From: Gammaproteobacteria bacterium
Lineage (GTDB): Bacteria > Pseudomonadota > Gammaproteobacteria > Thiohalomonadales > Thiohalomonadaceae
Assembly (NCBI GenBank): GCA_014859545.1
Contig: JACUTZ010000009.1
Coordinates: 1 to 33,017 of the forward strand
Length of the DNA: 33,017 nt
Reading direction: 5' to 3'
The translations under genes and the position numbers were made by a program. Positions 19,842-31,155 of the stretch are shown here, piece by piece. The notes beneath the pieces are model-generated. The model made no database searches and was not told the origin of the DNA. It saw nothing but the letters and a program-made list of their open reading frames with translations. Each line of letters opens with the position of its first letter. Positions within the stretch are counted from its first letter, which is position 1.

Positions 19842-21593
19842 ATGTTAAACCTATTGATCAAGGACCGCCGTTTGTGGGTCATTCCAACGCTCTTTTGGTG
19901 CTTGCTTTCCGCCCTCTCCCTGTTTTGGAACCTGAGTGAATTACGCCAATACCAGCGTGATTTGATCAGCAATCAGGGACGCATGATATTCAATATGTTC
20001 GAATCCGTGCGCCTGTGGAATGCGGGACACGGCGGCGTTTATGCACCGGTCACCGAGAGCACCCCGCCCAATCCCTACCTGATTATCGACGAGCGGGACT
20101 TTACGACCCCGGGCGGCAAGCCGATGACCATGGTCAATCCTGCCTATATGACTCGCCAGCTCTCCGCCCTGCTTGAACAGCAGGGTGAGCTGGATGTCAA
20201 ACTCACCAGCCTCAAGCCGCTGAATCCCGGCAACGCCCCGCGTGACTGGGAACGTACTGCCCTGAGTCTGTTTGAGGAGGATCCCGCGCAAAGCGAGTGG
20301 CTGGGCTTCGCAGATGTGGTCGGCGGGGAGCAGTTTCGTTACATTGCAGCACTGTATATCAAACCAGCCTGCCTGAGCTGTCATGCGGCACAGGGCTATC
20401 AGCTGGGGGACATTCGTGGAGGCCTGAGCGTCAGCTTCCCCACCGCCTCGATTCAACAGGCCACCCAGGGGCAGTGGCGCAAGCTAGTGATCAGCCACCT
20501 GATTGCCTGGGTACTGCTTAGTTGGCTCACTACCATCTGGTTGGGCCGTATGCGCAGCCAGATGTTGCAGATCGAACAGGCGCGCGACACCCAGGAACAA
20601 CTGGTGCATGAACGCACTCACGAACTACATCTCAAGGCACTTCAACATCAAAAGACAGAAGAAAATCTGCGACTAATCCTGAGTTCCTCGGCCGAGGGCA
20701 CCTTTGCGCTGGATGATCAGGGTCGGGTGACCCTGTGCAATCCCGCAGCACTACAGCAGCTTGGTTATCGCCAGGAAAGTCAGGTACTGGGTAAGCCCAT
20801 TCGTCAATTGCTCTGTCGAAACGAACAAAAATCAGATGAAAATTGCCATCACTGTGGTAGTGCCTGCGCCATCCAGGCCAGCTACCTGGATGGGCTTGAG
20901 CAGCATTTGGATGAGGCGGAATTTCGCCGTGCCGATGGTAGCCGCCTGGATGTGGAGTTTCGTTCTCACCCGGTGTTCCTCGATGAGAAGATTGCCGGGG
21001 CGGTGGTGACCTTTTCCGATATTACCGAACGCAAGGCGCGCCAGCATCAGATCTGGAAACAGGCCAATTTCGATCCCATGACCGGCCTGTACAATCGTCA
21101 TGCCTTCCTGGAACACCTGCGCACCCATGCCGTCAGTGCCCAGCGCCGCTATGAACAGTTTGCCCTATTGTTCATTGACCTGGATGGTTTCAAGCAGGTC
21201 AATGACGAAATGGGCCATGATGTGGGTGATGTCCTGCTGCAGGAGGTGGCGCGACGTCTGCAATCTGCCACCCGTGAATCGGACAGCATCGGTCGCCTGG
21301 GCGGTGATGAGTTTAGCGTGTTACTGGGTGGTTGCCATGCCGAAGGGGTAGCGACGCAATTGGCCGATAAACTCTTGAAACGACTCGCTGAACCCTATGA
21401 AATATCGGGTTCCATGGCGCGGGTTTCCGCCTCAATCGGGATTGCATTATTCCCAAAACATGGCCGTAGTGGCAAAAAACTGCTTAAACATGCGGATATG
21501 GCCATGTATGCTGCCAAGAATCAGGGCAAGAATCGTTATGTCATCTATCAAGCCGAAGACTATTCCAGCAATGCCGTGCATCACCAAACGTGA
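19842..21593 (+). CDS. DUF3365 (heme c)-PAS-GGDEF diguanylate cyclase
   Basis: The 583-aa membrane protein has a helix at about 12-30, a periplasmic DUF3365/Tll0287-like domain with a c-type heme site CLSCH (177-181), a second helix at about 216-236, a coiled segment, a PAS domain and a C-terminal GGDEF domain. The GGDEF motif is intact (GRLGGDEFSVLL, about 486) and an RxxD inhibitory site lies five residues before it (RESD), so it should make c-di-GMP and be product-inhibited. The PAS region carries a C-X9-C-X2-C-X3-C cluster. A redox or gas sensor is likely (inference). The cupin gene overlaps its 3' end. Confidence 0.9.
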   Translation: MLNLLIKDRRLWVIPTLFWCLLSALSLFWNLSELRQYQRDLISNQGRMIFNMFESVRLWNAGHGGVYAPVTESTPPNPYLIIDERDFTTPGGKPMTMVNPAYMTRQLSALLEQQGELDVKLTSLKPLNPGNAPRDWERTALSLFEEDPAQSEWLGFADVVGGEQFRYIAALYIKPACLSCHAAQGYQLGDIRGGLSVSFPTASIQQATQGQWRKLVISHLIAWVLLSWLTTIWLGRMRSQMLQIEQARDTQEQLVHERTHELHLKALQHQKTEENLRLILSSSAEGTFALDDQGRVTLCNPAALQQLGYRQESQVLGKPIRQLLCRNEQKSDENCHHCGSACAIQASYLDGLEQHLDEAEFRRADGSRLDVEFRSHPVFLDEKIAGAVVTFSDITERKARQHQIWKQANFDPMTGLYNRHAFLEHLRTHAVSAQRRYEQFALLFIDLDGFKQVNDEMGHDVGDVLLQEVARRLQSATRESDSIGRLGGDEFSVLLGGCHAEGVATQLADKLLKRLAEPYEISGSMARVSASIGIALFPKHGRSGKKLLKHADMAMYAAKNQGKNRYVIYQAEDYSSNAVHHQT

Positions 21594-22927: not shown

Positions 22928-25315
22928 CTAGGCGCGACGTTTATAGCTGCTTGCCGCCATGGATGGCTTGGCCAGCAGACGCTGCAGCAATGTCTGGCTA
23001 CTGATGGGCTTATCGATAAAAAAGCCCTGTGCCTCATCACAGCCCAGTTTGCCCAATACATTTAATGCTGTTTTAGAGGTAACCCCTTCAGCCACCACGC
23101 TCATACCAAGGTTGTGGGCAAGGTCGATAATGGTGCGCACGATCACCAGGTCGTTATCATCTTCCAGCATTTCCATTACAAAAGAGCGATCAATCTTGAT
23201 CTCACTGACCGGCAATTGCTTGAGATAGGCCAGGGAGGAATACCCCGTACCAAAATCATCGACAGCGATGCCCACGCCAATAGCATTCAATTCGGTCAGT
23301 ATGTTTTTGGCACGAATCGGATCGGTCATGATGTCGCTTTCGGTGAGTTCCAGTATGAAACAGAATGGCGGCAGCTTGTATTCTTCCAGCGCCTGGCTCA
23401 GGGTATCAATCAAGGTGTTATCCCGCAGGCACTGGGCAGACATATTTACCGCCACGGTCAACTCGAAGCCATGTTCACGCCAACGAGCGCATTCCTGCAA
23501 GGCACGTTTCAATACCAAATTGGTTAAGGGACGGATCAGGCCGGTCTGCTCGGCGAGTGGGATAATCTCATCCGGGTGGATCATGCCGCGTTCCGGGTGT
23601 TTCCAGCGTAATAGTGCTTCGGTGCCAATGATCTTGCCACTACGTATATCCAGCTTGCACTGGTAGTGCGGTTCCAGCTCCCCATACTCGATGGCGCGTC
23701 TCAGGTCGGTGAGCAGCTCCAGACGACTGACGTGATGGGTATCGGTACTGGGGTCATAGACGGCGAAGATATAGCCATTCTGCTTGGCGTGATACATCGC
23801 CACATCGGCACGCTGCATCAGAATATTCACATCATCGCCATGGCTGGGGGATTCGGCGATGCCGATGCTAATCCCAACCTTTAATTCGTGTTCTTCCACG
23901 TAAAATGGCTCATCGAAGATGCGACCGATTTGCTCGGCGATCAGTGTGGCCTGTTGCAGGTTAGCGTCGGGCAGCAGGATGCTGAACTCATCGCCACCCA
24001 ATCTAGCCACCGTGTCGGTTTTACGTACCGTGTTATACAGTCGCTCGGCTGCCTGCTGTAATACCAGATCCCCGACATGGTGGCCGAGGGTGTCGTTGAT
24101 CTCCTTGAAATGATCCAGGTCACTGAGCATCAGCACCAGTGGTTTGTGTGTCACTTCGCTGCGCATCAGCGCGGATTGCAGGCGCTCGTTGAGCAGCTTT
24201 CGGTTGGGCAGATCAGTCAGCGGATCATGGGAGGCCTGGTATTCCAGGGCCTCGGTTTCACGGATGATGGTACTGGCGAGGGTCTTGAACCGGTCCTCGA
24301 GGATGGCCAGTTCATCGCGGGTATCGCTCTTGGGGTGACGGATCGCCATGTGATTGGAAAACTCCACCACCCGCTCGGTCATCACCCGTAGTCGCCGGGT
24401 CAGCATGTAAATGAGTAGCATGAAAACCAGTACGAAGGTGGTCGTCACCAGCGAGCGTTGCTGGCGGGCGCGGTCCAGCACCGCTCGGGTCAGATCATTG
24501 ACCTCCTGCAGGGGAATGAAGGAGGCAAAACGAATCACGAAATCTGAAGAGCCATAGTCGAAAAACCCCCTGCCCACGGTGCGATGGGTATCGCTTAGCG
24601 CCGACAGGGACATACCGCCTGGGGCGGCGATGGGATCACTGCTGACGATGATGGTATCCGACTCCTCCGAGAGTAAAGCCACAGTATGACGGGTGGTGGA
24701 CAGGGTCTGGGAGTCACGCAGGAATTGGCTATCGAGGGGTGAGGCGAGCATCAGCGTTGCGACCTGCTCACCATCGATGAGTACCGGCTCCGAGCTTACC
24801 AGATAAGGCCCATCGTTCAGTTTGGTCAGATAGCTCTGATTGACCGATAGCGCCAGCAGCATTACCGATGGGGACAGTAATTCGGTGGCAGGCTGTGTAC
24901 GATCCCAGTTATAGACCTCACGCACCCTGCCCTGACTATCCAGCAACAGGGTGTATCGGGGCATAACAAACTGGCGCAGGATGGAATGATTGGGCATCCA
25001 GGCCGGGGCCCGGTGGTGGTAGTGAATCGTCGCCAAGGATGGCTCGACCCAAGTGGTTTGCTGCAGGTAATCATGCAACATCTGCGAACTCACCAGTATC
25101 TTGGCAGCCTGGCTGTAGATTTTGATTTGACGATCGAAAAGGGTGCGATGTTCCTGGGCCTCATTGCTGAAACGTTCCGCCAGTTTTTCGTGGAACAGGT
25201 GGGTCAAGGTGCGGGTTTGATAATTGTCCGAAACCATCCACAACACCGCCCCAAGCAGGGCGGTGAAAATTAGCATTTTTACCGTCAGTCCGGTACGACG
25301 CAGCATGTTGCGCAC
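22928..25315 (-). CDS. Membrane GGDEF-EAL c-di-GMP signalling protein
   Basis: The 795-aa protein has an N-terminal helix (about 13-28), a long periplasmic region (about 30-285), a second helix (about 288-306) with a HAMP-like linker, then GGDEF and EAL domains. GGDEF is intact (ARLGGDEFSILL, about 438) with an RKTD inhibitory site five residues before. The EAL domain has TEALLRWKH (about 565), ELTESD, DDFGTGYSSL and KIDRSF, so both cyclase and phosphodiesterase activity are possible. The GTG start overlaps the stop of the binding-protein gene as TAGTG; an ATG three codons in is an alternative. The tight coupling suggests the binding protein controls this enzyme (inference). Confidence 0.9.
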   Translation of the reverse strand: MRNMLRRTGLTVKMLIFTALLGAVLWMVSDNYQTRTLTHLFHEKLAERFSNEAQEHRTLFDRQIKIYSQAAKILVSSQMLHDYLQQTTWVEPSLATIHYHHRAPAWMPNHSILRQFVMPRYTLLLDSQGRVREVYNWDRTQPATELLSPSVMLLALSVNQSYLTKLNDGPYLVSSEPVLIDGEQVATLMLASPLDSQFLRDSQTLSTTRHTVALLSEESDTIIVSSDPIAAPGGMSLSALSDTHRTVGRGFFDYGSSDFVIRFASFIPLQEVNDLTRAVLDRARQQRSLVTTTFVLVFMLLIYMLTRRLRVMTERVVEFSNHMAIRHPKSDTRDELAILEDRFKTLASTIIRETEALEYQASHDPLTDLPNRKLLNERLQSALMRSEVTHKPLVLMLSDLDHFKEINDTLGHHVGDLVLQQAAERLYNTVRKTDTVARLGGDEFSILLPDANLQQATLIAEQIGRIFDEPFYVEEHELKVGISIGIAESPSHGDDVNILMQRADVAMYHAKQNGYIFAVYDPSTDTHHVSRLELLTDLRRAIEYGELEPHYQCKLDIRSGKIIGTEALLRWKHPERGMIHPDEIIPLAEQTGLIRPLTNLVLKRALQECARWREHGFELTVAVNMSAQCLRDNTLIDTLSQALEEYKLPPFCFILELTESDIMTDPIRAKNILTELNAIGVGIAVDDFGTGYSSLAYLKQLPVSEIKIDRSFVMEMLEDDNDLVIVRTIIDLAHNLGMSVVAEGVTSKTALNVLGKLGCDEAQGFFIDKPISSQTLLQRLLAKPSMAASSYKRRA

Positions 25316-26415
25316 TAGTGATGATGTCCGTTGGGTGGAAACTGCGCCAGGGCCTGCCCGGAGGGTTCGGCCACGAGTTCATCGTTAACAAACTGCCAGC
25401 CATTGGCCTTGAGCATCGACACTGGTGCCATGTGATATTTATCGTGGTGGGCTTCGATGTAGTCGCGCATGTGGTAGATAAGCTTTAGGGTTTCATCCCG
25501 GCGGGGATGATCGCGCCAGGTGGTCATGTTGAAGGTGCGATAGGCCGGGTATTGCCCACTGGCAAGATGTGCAATATCGGTCGGTGCATGACCATCGATG
25601 TTGAGGAGTTTTACTGCGCCAGGCTTACTGTTTTCCTTGACCATAAAAGCGGTCTCAAGGCCGATGGCAAAACGCTCCTGGGCTACCTTGGCAACCAGAT
25701 CGGGGATAACGCCCACTTCCTGCAGGTTGGGACTGAACAATTCCTGATTGGCCAGTAACAGGGTCCAGTGTCCGGGCCGCGCCTTGCAATGCAATCGGGC
25801 AGTCGGTTCGATCGGTACATCATGTGGGTGATGCTCACCCAGCTCCCGCCAGTTGCGGATATAGCCCTGAAAAACATCCCTGGCCTCGGCCAGGCTCAAA
25901 TTCTCCTGCGGATTATTACCGTTGACCATGACCGCCACCGCAGTGATCGCAATGGTGTGGTGTTCCAGGCCGGGCAGCCTGTCAGTGTCGCCAGGGGGGC
26001 AGCAAAAGCCGCCACTATCGATGGTTTTTTGCATCAGCTTGCCCGCCGAGGTACCACAGGTGCCGCTTTGTATGCCAATTTTCAGCCCGTTTTCCCGGCC
26101 GTAGCGGTAGATCTCCTCGGCCAGCACCGGGTAGGTATCCTGATTGAGGGTGATCACCAGATCGGCATCGCGATGGACTGCCTCATGAATGATGTCCTGT
26201 GTGACCCAGGCGGCAGGCATCGCTACAGTGCGATCATGATTGGCAAAGAAGGGCAGTCCGCGTAGTTTGGATTCGCAGGGTTGTCCCAGGTAAGAGCCGT
26301 CTACATCGGCACTACCCGTTTGGGCGGTGGCCTGGCAGGCCTGGAGTAGATTGGGAAGCATCAGCAGTGGCAGCATAATCGCCAGCATCTTAAAACGGCT
26401 TTGATAGCAAAACAT
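25315..26415 (-). CDS. Orphan PstS-like periplasmic substrate-binding protein
   Basis: The 366-aa product resembles phosphate-type (PBP-like) solute-binding proteins: HTIAITAVAVMVNGNNPQ, a FQGYIRNWRELG hinge-type segment and an SGTCGTSAGKLM anion-loop-like stretch. The signal peptide is MLAIMLPLLMLPNLLQAC; the LQAC could be a weak lipobox. It is rich in cysteine (GGFCCPPGD, LHCKARP, QPCESK) and ends in GHHH. I chose the ATG at 26415 because AGGAG lies 7 bases upstream; the ATG at 26430 overlaps that site. No permease or ATPase gene is near. The downstream GGDEF-EAL gene is translationally coupled, so a sensing role is more likely than transport. Ligand unknown. Confidence 0.8.
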   Translation of the reverse strand: MFCYQSRFKMLAIMLPLLMLPNLLQACQATAQTGSADVDGSYLGQPCESKLRGLPFFANHDRTVAMPAAWVTQDIIHEAVHRDADLVITLNQDTYPVLAEEIYRYGRENGLKIGIQSGTCGTSAGKLMQKTIDSGGFCCPPGDTDRLPGLEHHTIAITAVAVMVNGNNPQENLSLAEARDVFQGYIRNWRELGEHHPHDVPIEPTARLHCKARPGHWTLLLANQELFSPNLQEVGVIPDLVAKVAQERFAIGLETAFMVKENSKPGAVKLLNIDGHAPTDIAHLASGQYPAYRTFNMTTWRDHPRRDETLKLIYHMRDYIEAHHDKYHMAPVSMLKANGWQFVNDELVAEPSGQALAQFPPNGHHH

Positions 26416-26792
26416 GAGCGCTCTCCTCATTCAGGCATACCTCACGTGGTCTGGCCACAAAGTTTGTCCTTCCCATACATGCAAGACAGGCAAAGGCCTG
26501 TGTTTCAGCTTGTTATCGGAGTTCGACTTCGTAGGAACCGGGCCGCTGTGTTGTGATGCAAGATCAGCCACGATGTGAACGGCATCCTGGCTGACCACCT
26601 GTTGTCACTATCTGCGGAGACCCATATATACTGGCCTGTCGGCCTTGTTGTTTTATTTATGATGCCTGTTGTCAGACATGGCTACCAGTCTGAATATATT
26701 AATATTTTAGCTTATGCTTAGCTGCTTGGGCTGGATTCATCAGACTGTCATATATGCATAATGAAACCAGCATCCGGCTAAAACATCAAGCA
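26416..26792 (-). other. 377-bp non-coding region upstream of the binding-protein gene
   Basis: No credible gene is seen. The region should hold the promoter and leader of the leftward binding protein/GGDEF-EAL operon. It contains three inverted repeats: ACAGGC/GCCTGT around AAAG (26486-26501), TCAGCCA/TGGCTGA (26564-26594), and CAGTCTGA/TCAGACTG (26686-26693 and 26740-26747) flanking an AT-rich tract AATATATTAATATT. I could not pick a convincing promoter. Confidence 0.5.
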
Positions 26793-27170
26793 CTATTCCG
26801 GTGCAAGCAAGACGGCCAAATCCGCTTCGCTGGTGCTGAACGGCAGGATTGCCGTTACCTCACAATGCTGGCGCATCTTTTCGGCATGCTCAAACTCACC
26901 GGGTGCGGCCAGGATGATCACCCGGGCCTGTGGGGCAAATTTGGCCAGACTCATCAGAAATACATCCAGATTGCTGATATGCACCCCACTGTAGTTATTG
27001 CTGTAGCCGTAGACAAAATCAGCCACCACAAGGTCCGGCGGCTGTTTTTTTAGCTGGCTCACCGCCTTGCGGGTGGAGGTGAGCGGCACCACCTGATGAC
27101 CCAGGCGCTGATAGAGGCTGGTAAAATTTGGATGGTGTGGGGATTCGATGATCTCAAACAGAACCGACAA
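26793..27170 (-). CDS. Degenerate receiver-like small protein
   Basis: The 125-aa protein looks like a stand-alone CheY-like fold. A short N-terminal strand (VLFEIIES) replaces the usual acidic pair, PDLVVADFVYGYS carries an aspartate near residue 50 at the phosphoacceptor position, and ARVIILAAPGE resembles strand 4. The conserved lysine near the end is not evident (AILPFSTSEADL). Phosphorylation is doubtful and it may be a pseudo-receiver. It lies upstream of the binding-protein gene on the same strand, but 377 bases apart, so it may be a separate transcript. Function unknown. Confidence 0.65.
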   Translation of the reverse strand: MSVLFEIIESPHHPNFTSLYQRLGHQVVPLTSTRKAVSQLKKQPPDLVVADFVYGYSNNYSGVHISNLDVFLMSLAKFAPQARVIILAAPGEFEHAEKMRQHCEVTAILPFSTSEADLAVLLAPE

Positions 27171-27289: not shown

Positions 27290-27319
27290 CTCTGCGTCGT
27301 TCGGCGTCCTCGGCGGTGA
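27290..27319. repeat. Degenerate half of the GCGCAGAGG-type repeat
   Basis: CTCTGCGTCGTTCGGCGTCC followed by TCGGCGGTGA reads like the right arm of the repeat seen at 16812-16980 and 32992-33017 (three CTCTGCG-type units ending GCGGTGA), with several mismatches. No matching left arm was found nearby. It is a likely remnant, lying in the divergent intergenic region. Confidence 0.4.
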
Positions 27320-27375
27320 TCATTTTATGGCTCTCCCTGAGAACGCCCCATTCATACATCACGGGAGTTGTCACC

Positions 27376-28356
27376 ATGTCCATGCGCCACGGATTCCTTG
27401 CTGCGCTAATCACCACTGCGGCGTTGTTGTTCACCAGCCAGGCCGGGGCCTCGCAGCCGCGCTTTATCACGATCGGGACCGCCGGGGTGACCGGGGTCTA
27501 CTACCCGGTAGGTGGGGCGATCTGCCGCCTGGTCAATCAGGGGCGAGCCGAGCATGGCATGCGCTGTTCGGCGGAAAGTACCGGCGGTTCGGTGTTCAAC
27601 CTCAACTCGCTGCGCGGTGGGGACTTTGACATCGTGCTGGCCCAGTCCGACTGGCACTATCACGCCTGGCACGGCAGCGACCGCTTTGCCGACAACGGCG
27701 CGGATGAAAAACTGCGCGCGCTGTTTTCCTTGCAGATCGAGGCCTTCACCGTGCTGGCCCGCCCCGATGCCAAGATCGAAAAATTTACCGACCTGAAGGG
27801 CAAGCGGGTCAACATCGGCAATCCCGGCTCCGGTCAGCGCGGCACCGCCGAAACCCTGCTGGCGGCACTGGGTATGTCGACCGACGACTTTGCCCTGAGC
27901 ACCGAATTGCCCTCCCGTGAGCAGGCCCAGGTCCTGTGTGATAACCGGGTGGATGCGATCTTCTTTACCGTCGGCCACCCCACCGGCTCAATCCAGGAAC
28001 CGATCAGCACCTGCAACGCCCGCCTGGTGCCAGTAGTCGGTGACAAGGTCGATGCACTGGTGGCCGATCGCCCCTACTACGCCGCGACCACTATCCCCGG
28101 TGGCATGTATCCGGGCAATCCGGATGACACCCGGACCTTCGGCGTGGCCGCCACCCTGGTGGCCTCCGCCGACACCGCCGATGAAGCGGTCTATCAGGTA
28201 GTCCGTGCGGTGTTCGAAAACTTCGATGCCTTCCGCCGCCTGCATCCGGCGCTGGGCCAGCTTACCCCCGAGGCGATGATCCGCGATGGTCTGAGCGCGC
28301 CGCTGCATGAGGGAGCCAAGCGCTATTATCGTGAGGCCGGGCTGCTCCAGGACTGA
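27376..28356 (+). CDS. TAXI-family TRAP transporter solute-binding protein
   Basis: The 326-aa periplasmic protein has a signal peptide (GFLAALITTAALLFTSQAGA) and the TAXI signature FITIGTAGVTGVYYPVGGAICRL, then AESTGGSVFNLNSL, KRVNIGNPGSGQRGTAE and VDAIFFTVGHPTGSI. Members bind small organic anions such as dicarboxylates or glutamate for TRAP uptake. The ligand here is unknown. I chose the ATG at 27376 because GGGAG lies 9 bases upstream and it gives a normal signal peptide; the ORF track starts 20 codons earlier. The partner permease gene follows 147 bases downstream, beyond a long palindrome. Confidence 0.92.
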   Translation: MSMRHGFLAALITTAALLFTSQAGASQPRFITIGTAGVTGVYYPVGGAICRLVNQGRAEHGMRCSAESTGGSVFNLNSLRGGDFDIVLAQSDWHYHAWHGSDRFADNGADEKLRALFSLQIEAFTVLARPDAKIEKFTDLKGKRVNIGNPGSGQRGTAETLLAALGMSTDDFALSTELPSREQAQVLCDNRVDAIFFTVGHPTGSIQEPISTCNARLVPVVGDKVDALVADRPYYAATTIPGGMYPGNPDDTRTFGVAATLVASADTADEAVYQVVRAVFENFDAFRRLHPALGQLTPEAMIRDGLSAPLHEGAKRYYREAGLLQD

Positions 28357-28503: not shown

Positions 28504-31155
28504 ATGATTCGCTTGGAACGCCCCCTGCAAGGACTGATCTGGCTGGTGGCGATCAGCTGGACCCTGTTCCAGCTATGGATCGTCTCCCCGCTACCCTATA
28601 CGCTGGGGATCGGTCTGGTCAGTGACACCCAGGCCCGCGCCATCCACCTCGCCTTTGCCCTGCTGCTCGCCTTTGGTCTGGGGGCCAGCGGTCAGCAGCT
28701 AGCGGGACGCCATCGCCTGTTTGGGCTGTTCTACCTGCTACTGAGCGGTCTCTCCCTCTACCACGGCTGGCAGCTGGGTGGGGAAACACCGCAAGCCCTG
28801 CTGTTTCTGATGGGGGCCGCTGTGCCGCTGCTATTGGCAGCGCATTGCCTGCTTGCCGACAGCTCGCTGCGGCGCCTGCTCGATCTGTTGCTGGCCTTGC
28901 TCGCCGCGGGCTGCGCCCTCTATCTCTACCTCTTTCACCGCGAACTGGCCGATCGCCCCGGCACCCCGCTGTTGCAGGATCTGGCGGTGGCCGGCTTTGG
29001 CCTGCTGCTGTTGCTGGAGGCCAGCCGTCGCAGCATGGGCCCGGCGCTAATGGTGATCGCCGGGGCCTTTTTGATCTATGGCTTTGCCGGCCCCTGGATG
29101 CCGGAGGTGATCTCCCATGCCGGGGCCTCCTTCCAGCGCGCCATGGCCCAGCACTGGCTCTCCAACGAGGGGGTGTTCGGCATCGCGCTGGGGGTCTCCA
29201 CCAGCTTTGTGTTTTTGTTTGTGCTGTTTGGTGCCCTGCTCAACCGTGCCGGGGCCGGTAACTGGTTTATCCAGCTGGCCTTCGCCCTGCTCGGCCACCT
29301 GCGCGGCGGCCCGGCCAAGGCCTCGGTACTGGCCTCGGGAATGAACGGACTGGTCTCCGGTTCCTCCATTGCCAATGTGGTCACCACCGGTACCTTTACC
29401 ATCCCGCTGATGCGCAAGGTCGGTTTTAGCCGTGAACGGGCCGGGGCGATCGAGGTGGCCAGCTCGGTGAACGGCCAGATCATGCCACCGGTGATGGGGG
29501 CCGCGGCCTTCCTGATGGCCGAGTATGTGGGGATCGCCTACACCGAGGTGATCAAACACGCCTTCCTGCCGGCGGTGATCGCCTATGCCGCACTGCTCTA
29601 CATCGTCCATCTGGAGGCCTGCAAGGAGCACATGGGCGGACTGCAGCGCCCCCCTGCCCCACGGCGTTACGCGCTGCTGCGGATGGGACTGAGCACCAGC
29701 GGAATCTTCATTTTACTGGGTCTGGCCTGGCTACTGCTGACGACCCTGCAAACACTGCTGGGGCCATACGCCGCCTGGGGGATCGGCCTGTTGCTGTTCG
29801 GGGCCTATTTGGCCCTGCTGGCACTGGCGGTGCGTCACCCGCTGTCCACGCCGGAGGACAGCGACACCCTCACCCAGCTGCCTCGCCCTGGCGAGATCGC
29901 CCTGGGCGGACTCTACTTCCTGCTGCCGGTGGCGGTACTGATCTGGCTGCTGGTGATCGAACGGCTCTCCCCCGGCCTGGCCGCATTTTGGGCGGTAGTA
30001 TTACTAATGGTGATCACCGTCAGCCAGCCGCTGCTACTCGCCTGGCTGCGTCGTGAGGGCCGCCCCATGGCTGCCCTGCGCCACGGGATCACCGAGCTGT
30101 TTGCCGCCTTCAACGAAGGGGCAAGGGGCATGGTGGGGATCGCCCTGGCCACTGCCGCCGCCGGGATCATCGTCGGCACCGTCAGTATGACCGGACTGGG
30201 GCTGGTAATGACCGATCTGGTAGAAACCCTCTCCGGTGGCAACCTGATGGCAATGCTGTTGCTGACCGCCGCGATCAGCCTGATCCTCGGCCTGGGCCTG
30301 CCCACCACCGCCAACTACATCATCGTCGCCACCCTGATGGCGCCGGTGATCGTCGATCTGGGTGCCCAGCACGGCCTGTTGGTGCCGCTGATCGCGGTGC
30401 ACCTGTTTGTGTTCTACTTCGGCCTGCTGGCCGATGTCACCCCGCCGGTGGGACTGGCCTCCTATGCCGCCGCAGCGGTTTCCGGCGGCGACCCGATCCG
30501 CACCGGCCTGCACGCGATCCGCTATAACCTGCGCACCATCGTGTTGCCGTTTCTGTTCCTGTTCAACACCCAGCTACTGCTGATAGGGATCGCCTCGTTC
30601 TGGCACGGCTTACTGGTCTTCCTCGCCGCATTGCTGGGCATACTGCTGTTTACCGCCGCCACCCAGGGCTGGATGCTGACCCGCAGCCGCCTGTGGGAGA
30701 GTGCCCTGTTGTTGCTGGTGGCCTTCACCCTGTTCCGCCCCGACTGGTGGATGAACCAGTTTAGCCCCGAGTTCGACCACCACCCCGCCAGCCAGCTGAT
30801 TGCACTTGCCGCGACGGCGCCCGCCGACGGTCAGTTACGCCTGGTCGCCAGTGGCATGAACTGGGATGGTGAGTCCATCCAACGCACCCTGATGCTACCC
30901 ATGGGGCCAGCCGACAGCGGCGCGCAGCGCCTGCAACAGGCCGGGCTGATGGTAATGATGCTGGGGGATGAGCCCAGCATCACCGGCATCACCCACAACA
31001 GCCCCGCCCAGCGGGCCGGGCTGGACTTCGGCTGGCAGATCGAAACGGTACTGGTGCCTGCCGAACGTCCCGCACCGGAATGGTTCTGGCTGCCGGCCCT
31101 GCTGCTTGCCGCGCTGGTATGGACGAGCCAGCGGCGGCGTATGGATAGGGAGTAA
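28504..31155 (+). CDS. TRAP transporter fused (DctQM-type) permease with DUF3394
   Basis: The 883-aa membrane protein joins the small (DctQ-like) and large (DctM-like) TRAP membrane parts. Many hydrophobic helices span the protein, with DctM-type motifs such as GSSIANVVTTGTFTIPLMRKVGFS, SSVNGQIMPPVMGAAAFLMAEY and GLGLPTTANYIIVATLMAP. The C-terminal region after about residue 760 is a DUF3394-type domain with a PDZ-like stretch (ITGITHNSPAQRAGLDFGW), then a last helix and a basic tail. It works with the TAXI binding protein upstream, driven by a sodium or proton gradient. The substrate is not predictable from sequence. Confidence 0.93.
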   Translation: MIRLERPLQGLIWLVAISWTLFQLWIVSPLPYTLGIGLVSDTQARAIHLAFALLLAFGLGASGQQLAGRHRLFGLFYLLLSGLSLYHGWQLGGETPQALLFLMGAAVPLLLAAHCLLADSSLRRLLDLLLALLAAGCALYLYLFHRELADRPGTPLLQDLAVAGFGLLLLLEASRRSMGPALMVIAGAFLIYGFAGPWMPEVISHAGASFQRAMAQHWLSNEGVFGIALGVSTSFVFLFVLFGALLNRAGAGNWFIQLAFALLGHLRGGPAKASVLASGMNGLVSGSSIANVVTTGTFTIPLMRKVGFSRERAGAIEVASSVNGQIMPPVMGAAAFLMAEYVGIAYTEVIKHAFLPAVIAYAALLYIVHLEACKEHMGGLQRPPAPRRYALLRMGLSTSGIFILLGLAWLLLTTLQTLLGPYAAWGIGLLLFGAYLALLALAVRHPLSTPEDSDTLTQLPRPGEIALGGLYFLLPVAVLIWLLVIERLSPGLAAFWAVVLLMVITVSQPLLLAWLRREGRPMAALRHGITELFAAFNEGARGMVGIALATAAAGIIVGTVSMTGLGLVMTDLVETLSGGNLMAMLLLTAAISLILGLGLPTTANYIIVATLMAPVIVDLGAQHGLLVPLIAVHLFVFYFGLLADVTPPVGLASYAAAAVSGGDPIRTGLHAIRYNLRTIVLPFLFLFNTQLLLIGIASFWHGLLVFLAALLGILLFTAATQGWMLTRSRLWESALLLLVAFTLFRPDWWMNQFSPEFDHHPASQLIALAATAPADGQLRLVASGMNWDGESIQRTLMLPMGPADSGAQRLQQAGLMVMMLGDEPSITGITHNSPAQRAGLDFGWQIETVLVPAERPAPEWFWLPALLLAALVWTSQRRRMDRE

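Follow-up and report, generated by a model that had tools for sequence, protein, structure and literature searches.

Two adjacent genes on the minus strand of the 33,017-nt stretch analysed here (hereafter, the window) probably encode a two-protein periplasmic receptor, in which a PstS-derived binding protein and a membrane sensor would together place a cytoplasmic output under ligand control, without feeding a transporter. Its recurrence in several phyla with different outputs suggests a hitherto undescribed receptor for an outside signal. The best reading, drawn by analogy, is that of a two-part receptor which would work like NspS-MbaA, LuxP-LuxQ or AioX-AioS, built from other families. The outside signal is known for few c-di-GMP enzymes, and its delivery by a binding protein is known in few cases.

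The gene pair and its proteins

The locus comprises the following features:

25315..26430 (-): binding-protein gene, 371 aa, putatively secreted, PstS fold (ORF, PBP_like_2, AlphaFold)
22928..25315 (-): membrane GGDEF-EAL enzyme gene, 795 aa (ORF list, Pfam)
25313..25317 (-): TAGTG junction, binding-protein stop plus enzyme GTG start (sequence)
24266..25315 (-): sensor module of the enzyme, residues 1-350, common to partners of paired binding proteins (profile A4, AlphaFold)
23774..24235 (-): GGDEF domain, residues 361-514, in which both the catalytic motif and the RxxD inhibition site are preserved
23006..23707 (-): EAL domain, residues 537-770, with EALLR, DDFG and metal-ligand motifs intact

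Both open reading frames and their overlap, as described in a prior sequence-only reading of this DNA, are real: the stop TAG and the start GTG share one base, and the junction reads CATCATCACTAGTGCGCAACATG. The description of the two genes as translationally fused went too far, the one-base overlap implying translational coupling at most and no fusion. Among pairs from relatives, the median gap is 6 nt (n=69), 18 of the 69 overlap, and five others share the one-base overlap. The end at 26415 given in the sequence-only reading corresponds to a second in-frame ATG of the binding protein, Met6, and the start of the enzyme is not certain, since an in-frame ATG lies three codons beyond the GTG. 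A promoter and terminator scan returned promoter-like matches in about the number found in shuffled sequence, none of them convincing upstream of the operon.

The binding protein carries a Sec-like N-terminal signal helix (approximately residues 8-33), which suggests secretion, and its mature domain begins at about residue 60. It matches Pfam PBP_like_2 with an E-value of 1.7e-6 and 28.4 bits (cut-off 27), as do 80 of 80 family members at E <= 0.001, and the NCBIfam PstS model TIGR02136 with an E-value of 5.8e-12 and 45 bits, below the curated cut-off of 206.6; 79 of the 80 members match the latter model at E <= 0.001 (best E 1.6e-25). The best PDB matches of its AlphaFold model (mean pLDDT 88) are all PstS. 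The protein thus belongs to the PstS fold superfamily, yet lies outside PstS proper by the TIGR02136 cut-off, and is a member of an unnamed family. A scan of genome contigs with the single sequence recovered no relatives, and a six-row profile search of genome contigs collected at least 239 family loci. PotD is absent among the listed sequence and fold matches of the binding protein, where PstS is found instead, and AioX figures neither in the 11 PDB sequences matched by the family profile nor in the 50 fold matches listed. In agreement with the sequence-only reading, the ORF list and a Pfam scan of the neighbourhood revealed no ABC permease or ATPase around the window pair.

The enzyme matches GGDEF and EAL with Pfam E-values of 1e-50 and 7e-74, respectively. 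Its sensor module is modelled by AlphaFold (pLDDT 91) as a TM helix, a periplasmic alpha/beta domain of about 250 residues with a LuxQ/dCache-like fold, a second TM helix and a linker, an arrangement that fits the periplasmic region of about 250 residues predicted earlier. Foldseek assigned the periplasmic domain a probability of 1.00 against DctB, vpHK1S-Z8 and LuxQ. LuxQ gave the top TM-score normalised to the target (0.61) among the 50 fold matches listed, but the global TM-scores are modest and LuxQ is just one among many dCache matches. The sensor profile found no match in a sequence search of the PDB.

Recurrence of the pair with different outputs

Two findings had been named beforehand as refuting the sensory reading: a pair confined to close relatives, and homologues normally beside ABC transporter genes. 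Conservation of the pair reaches far past close relatives. A gene for the sensor domain is present at 75 of 88 binding-protein loci, mostly on the same strand and directly downstream, in Nitrospirota, Gammaproteobacteria, Desulfobulbaceae, Magnetococcales, SAR324, Deferribacteres and others; in a few cases, no intact binding-protein gene lies near the sensor gene. Among 274 sampled Gammaproteobacteria genomes, the binding protein occurs in 11 and the sensor in 16, and every one of the 11 also has the sensor (Fisher p 3e-16, without correction for common descent). These genomes hold 13 binding-protein genes, of which 10 adjoin a sensor gene and 3 do not. Distances for the two paired proteins also correlate (Mantel r 0.68, matched by 0 of 2000 permutations), although common descent and inheritance as an operon would account for part of this correlation and of the co-occurrence.

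The part common to the partners is the sensor, not the output. Matches among 50 partners comprised HATPase (26), GGDEF (17), EAL (10) and HD (2), and, across the sensor tree, outputs switched at least 12 times while the sensor remained constant; those seen with it are GGDEF-EAL, GGDEF, histidine kinase, HD-GYP and PP2C. The proposal of a c-di-GMP input module, which would apply to the GGDEF-EAL output in the window, is too narrow as an exclusive description: elsewhere, histidine kinases, HD-GYP and PP2C proteins are the outputs of the same input pair.

Nor are ABC genes the normal neighbours of the homologues. Within 6 kb of 86 family loci, we found four ABC-ATPase-like ORFs and no recurrent pst genes or other transporter neighbours. 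Except for other signalling genes, the neighbours are lineage-specific and unconserved, and offer no clue to the ligand. Together, these results support the earlier interpretation of the pair as a sensory module. A literature search on PstS/PBP_like_2 proteins with histidine kinases or GGDEF proteins, which covered few subscription journals, found no description of the pair.

The Cys/His pocket and candidate ligands

Three loops of the binding protein line the putative pocket:

26041..26064 (-): GTCGTSAG, residues 123-130; invariant Cys125, aligned to PstS Ser38
25993..26013 (-): GGFCCPP, residues 140-146; invariant Cys143-Cys144, Cys143 aligned to PstS Asp56
25765..25797 (-): RLHCKARPGHW, residues 212-222; invariant His214, Cys215, Arg218 and Trp222, near-invariant His221

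The CC motif singled out by the sequence-only reading is real, being kept in 80 of 80 members and in 15 of 15 sequences gathered without recourse to it, whereas the GHHH tail noted alongside it is private to the window protein and no feature of the family. The Cys125 loop, with Cys125 outside the patterns used for collecting relatives, is equally conserved (80/80 and 15/15). As the reference we used the E. coli PstS sequence with its phosphate contacts, Ser38, Asp56, Arg135 and Ser139-Gly140-Thr141 (contact numbering checked). Two alignments place Cys125 at Ser38 and Cys143 at Asp56, on the anion-contact loops, and so the normal phosphate site appears to be gone; the fourth anion loop (Arg135...Ser139-Gly140-Thr141) is replaced by RLHCKxRPGHW in the family. 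Asp150-Arg151 (invariant) and Gln97 (near-invariant) are further conserved residues in or near the pocket loops. Conservation thus marks out a key set larger than CC alone, with four cysteines and two histidines in the place of the lost phosphate site; their convergence at one site rests on the alignment to PstS.

We propose that the binding protein would trap its ligand between its two lobes, with Cys125, Cys143 and Cys144 contributed by one lobe and His214, Cys215 and His221 by the other, through a Cys/His-lined site that replaces the phosphate site. Serving no transporter, it would dock on the enzyme encoded by the next gene downstream, at the periplasmic domain with the LuxQ/dCache-like fold, and by opening or closing in response to the ligand it would alter the cytoplasmic output: in the window enzyme, the balance of c-di-GMP synthesis (GGDEF) and breakdown (EAL) and, elsewhere, the activity of histidine kinases, diguanylate cyclases, HD-GYP phosphodiesterases or a PP2C phosphatase driven by the same input pair. 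Docking, ligand binding and the direction of the response are our inferences.

Phosphate is an unlikely ligand. Pocket chemistry and taxonomy tentatively suggest a thiophilic metal or metalloid, or a reactive sulfur species. The family occurs frequently in lineages that cycle sulfur and iron, and dsrA is present in 9 of the 11 binding-protein genomes vs 93 of 274 overall (p 0.001), an association in which shared ancestry is a confounder. In the genome of the window, soxB was found and dsrA gave no match; association of soxB with the binding protein was not significant among the sampled Gammaproteobacteria (p 0.06). More broadly, the pair may exemplify a receptor class, widespread yet undescribed, of anaerobic and sulfur/iron-cycling bacteria, with a four-Cys/two-His clamp, a thiophilic or sulfur ligand, one sensor domain and interchangeable outputs, although we put this forward with some reserve. 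One input pair spans several phyla that include many uncultured sulfur oxidisers, sulfate reducers and magnetotactic bacteria. Knowing what one member binds would offer a first clue to the signals of hundreds of signalling proteins, and the pocket residues supply exact mutants for testing.

Alternative explanations and known systems

The PstS fold and the PstS/PBP_like_2 matches could also mean that the binding protein supplies an ABC permease from another locus with phosphate or a different anion, and that it lies next to GGDEF-EAL incidentally. This is highly improbable given the Cys/His residues in place of phosphate contacts in the members examined, the rarity of ABC-ATPase-like ORFs and lack of recurrent pst genes around the family loci, and the regular partnership, in different phyla, with one and the same sensor domain. 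A redox switch, in which the invariant cysteines make or break disulfides or persulfides upon exposure to oxidants, sulfide or polysulfide and thereby change docking, with no reversible ligand binding, deserves more weight, even if we consider it rather unlikely. The vicinal CC, Cys125 and Cys215 amount to four invariant cysteines, in a protein that its Sec-like helix would expose to the oxidising periplasm, and the sulfur/iron-cycling distribution and dsrA association fit as well. However, a coordinated ligand is suggested as well by other conserved residues in or near these loops, namely His214, Arg218 and Asp150-Arg151 (invariant) and His221 and Gln97 (near-invariant), and the dsrA link carries the confounding noted above, with no dsrA match in the window genome.

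A three-cysteine site would suit As(III), and the binding protein could be an arsenite sensor, equivalent to AioX but derived from PstS, that uses its cysteines for recognition. AioX itself, an oxyanion-fold protein with the ligand-site cysteine Cys106, works with a histidine kinase (PMC5908839). We regard this explanation as improbable: AioX is PhnD-like (PMC5908839) whereas the binding protein is PstS-like, AioX is not among the family-profile sequence matches, and a general link to arsenite oxidase was rejected, the enzyme occurring in 1 of 11 binding-protein genomes and 6 of 274 overall, in a count that, of the arsenic respiration enzymes, covered arsenite oxidase and no others such as ArxA or ArrA. 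Arsenic resistance without respiration stays compatible with these counts. Similarly improbable is a sensor that binds its own signal, with the binding protein acting as a metal buffer or chaperone and forming no signalling complex. CHASE4 domains of P. aeruginosa c-di-GMP proteins bind iron, heme or copper directly (PMC10904736, PMC13277305), so that the sensor might work independently of the binding protein, and weak CHASE4 similarity was detected in 18 of 68 sensors (E <= 0.01; best 7e-5). Against this, the window sensor scores 20.7-22.8 bits, under the Pfam gathering cut-off of 26.2, the binding protein accompanies the sensor across the output changes, and all 11 sampled binding-protein genomes also hold the sensor. 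We therefore retain the two-protein receptor as the preferred reading.

Compared with known systems, the family shares its fold and detectable sequence homology with PstS (TIGR02136; PDB 4gd5, 4q8r, 4exl, 1twy), but differs in its replaced anion contacts, scores far under the cut-off and the missing Pst transporter context. The P. aeruginosa proteins IsmP/PA2072, PA0847 and PA14_53310 (PMC10904736, PMC13277305) likewise carry a periplasmic CHASE4-type domain on GGDEF/EAL proteins; there, CHASE4 itself binds the signal and the accessible text mentions no partner binding protein, whereas similarity of the window sensor to CHASE4 is sub-threshold. In AioX-AioS-AioR and ArxX/ArrX (PMC5908839), an oxyanion-fold binding protein with a ligand-site cysteine and a membrane-sensor partner has also shifted from transport to sensing, and AioX controls arsenic enzymes via its histidine kinase; the window family differs in being PstS-like, with four invariant cysteines and no general arsenite oxidase link. 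LuxP docks on the periplasmic domain of LuxQ (PDB 1zhh, 2hj9), which the window sensor model matches (12% identity), but LuxP binds AI-2, belongs to another binding-protein family and acts on a kinase output. The comparison with NspS-MbaA of Vibrio cholerae and Sinorhizobium meliloti (PMC9993111, PMC8967002, PMC8079147), made in the sequence-only reading, is sound as a working principle: both pairs combine a sensing periplasmic binding protein with a two-TM GGDEF-EAL protein, whose periplasmic domain spans about 230-250 residues. NspS, however, is a PotD-type polyamine protein and the window protein is of PstS type with a Cys/His site; RxxD is present in the window enzyme, whereas MbaA is described as lacking it; and, in pairs of the window type, outputs have been swapped across phyla.

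Conserved pairing of the binding protein with a sensor

We analyzed two adjoining genes of the window:

25315-26430, minus strand, binding-protein gene (371 residues, N-terminal signal helix)
22928-25315, minus strand, membrane GGDEF-EAL protein gene (795 residues)

As the sequence-only reading had stated, the binding-protein stop overlaps the enzyme start, with one base common to both genes in the window sequence (TAGTG), and translational coupling is likely. The exact start codon of the enzyme is not certain, because an ATG lies three codons after the GTG. The domain search gave strong scores for GGDEF and EAL, and the catalytic motifs of both domains, as well as the RxxD site, are intact.

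With the N-terminal part of this enzyme as the query, the sensor domain was detected in 75 of 88 binding-protein loci, mostly encoded directly downstream on the same strand (median intergenic gap of 6 nt in 69 pairs). Among the 13 loci without it, some lie at contig ends, two contain only distant PstS relatives, and others have different gene surroundings, for example, in Beggiatoa-type genomes, or CHASE2 proteins close by in one genome. Across 274 sampled Gammaproteobacteria genomes, the binding protein was found in 11 and the sensor in 16, including all 11 (p 3e-16), and 10 of 13 binding-protein genes adjoin a sensor gene. The five sensor-only genomes include one with a truncated binding-protein fragment adjoining the sensor gene and one assembly with a completeness of only 77%. 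Distances among the binding proteins correlate with those among the sensors (Mantel r 0.68), to which shared ancestry contributes. The lack of nearby ABC transporter genes noted in the sequence-only reading largely holds for the family: within 6 kb of 86 loci, there are four ABC-ATPase-like ORFs in total, and the neighbor families, signaling genes excepted, are lineage-specific.

Several loci depart from this arrangement. In Beggiatoa/Thioploca-type genomes (L025, L045, L049, L071), no sensor gene adjoins the binding-protein gene, which is followed by Sel1-repeat-like and prephenate-dehydrogenase-like genes (named by eye). L105 (G053:C1:3081000-3091000) holds a second cysteine-pocket copy without an adjoining sensor gene, near genes for a CHASE2-only protein and a CHASE2-adenylate/guanylate cyclase. 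At L100 (G075:C1:273500-283500), sensor-GGDEF-EAL genes flank one binding-protein gene on both sides, suggesting that a single binding protein may serve two sensors.

The window also encodes an intact transport pair near the receptor operon, a TAXI-type (NMT1_3) binding protein (27316-28356, plus strand) and a fused TRAP transporter (DctM plus DUF3394; 28504-31155, plus strand).

A predicted cysteine pocket and its candidate ligands

The window binding protein matches Pfam PBP_like_2 slightly over the cut-off and the PstS subfamily far under it; the top PDB matches of its AlphaFold model (mean pLDDT 88) are PstS proteins. A six-row profile search of genome contigs yielded at least 239 relatives, 80 of which were kept for alignment. 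The invariant residues are Cys125, Cys143, Cys144, His214, Cys215, Arg218 and Trp222, with His221 found in 79 of 80; counts for the CC and HCK motifs are partly circular, both having been scan patterns, either of which sufficed for selection, and Cys125 belongs to neither. In a pattern-free set (14 relatives from a whole-gene search plus the window protein), the four cysteines and His214 are kept in 15/15 and His221 in 14/15. The CC motif singled out in the sequence-only reading is a family feature; the GHHH tail shows no conservation among the 80.

In a profile alignment with S. pneumoniae PstS1, Cys125 matches the Ser of the GGGSGTG loop, and the Asp of the DIGNSD loop corresponds to Cys143. 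Against E. coli PstS (numbering of the known contacts checked), these residues fall on Ser38 and Asp56; the Arg135 to Thr141 loop is matched by RLHCKxRPGHW, and there the two alignments disagree by a few residues. The aligned PstS positions are established anion contacts, located on both lobes. With Cys/His loops at these positions, the alignments make a phosphate site unlikely and point to a pocket that would suit a thiophilic ligand or thiol chemistry. Score, contact residues and gene context all argue against PstS membership.

According to record titles, members are common among sulfur oxidizers, sulfate reducers, magnetotactic and other Nitrospirota, SAR324 and related groups. In the Gammaproteobacteria sample, dsrA is present in 9/11 binding-protein genomes versus 93/274 overall (p 0.001), with a weaker link for soxB (8/11 versus 119/274, p 0.06), both without phylogenetic correction. 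The window's genome carries soxB; a search there for dsrA found no match. A general AioX-like role is disfavored, since arsenite oxidase occurs in only 1/11 binding-protein genomes. CHASE4 c-di-GMP proteins are known to sense iron, heme and copper (PMC10904736, PMC13277305). As candidate ligands, we tentatively favor a thiophilic metal or metalloid, or a reactive sulfur species.

Sensor fold and variable outputs

In the AlphaFold model of the sensor (pLDDT 91), a long N-terminal helix leads into a periplasmic alpha/beta domain, which is followed by the second TM helix. The domain resembles dCache-type sensors and LuxQ in fold; LuxQ (from the LuxP-LuxQ complex) has the highest target-normalized TM-score, 0.61, among the 50 matches listed. 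CHASE4 was weakly matched by 18/68 sensors at E <= 0.01; the window sensor scored 22.8 bits versus a cut-off of 26.2.

Fifty partners gave matches to HATPase (26), GGDEF (17), EAL (10) and HD (2), and one partner ends in a PP2C-type domain, recognized by eye. Several Nitrospirota loci encode a kinase, then a short ORF and then a GGDEF-containing ORF. With at least 12 output changes on the sensor-domain tree, the binding protein and sensor are therefore the constant part of the system while outputs vary, as predicted for a two-part receptor.

Elsewhere in the window, a Tll0287-like sensor-PAS-GGDEF protein (19842-21593, plus strand), with a CLSCH motif (CxxCH heme-type) in its N-terminal part, represents a second c-di-GMP enzyme. 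A 125-aa ORF upstream of the operon (26793-27170, minus strand, TTG start) looks response-regulator-like by eye; a Pfam search with it found no match.

Comparison with known systems

The window's genome encodes a second orphan PstS-like protein (L002, G000:C134:4217-7828; 318 aa with an RR-type signal) that shares 30% identity with the window binding protein and lies between genes for a HAMP-HisKA-HATPase kinase and a sigma-54 response regulator. This X-S-R order recalls aioXSR, but the binding protein is PstS-like; in G009 (L008), a similar kinase gene adjoins a relative.

The likeness to NspS-MbaA (PMC9993111) drawn in the sequence-only reading extends to the working principle, but not to family membership, NspS being of the PotD type. 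AioX-AioS (PMC5908839) likewise shares the principle, but AioX is of the PhnD type. LuxP-LuxQ also works by this principle. The open literature searched yielded no description of the present pair. We regard the pair as following the known principle of binding-protein-coupled signaling, with a new family of binding proteins, a sensor domain that has no name so far, and unusual modularity.
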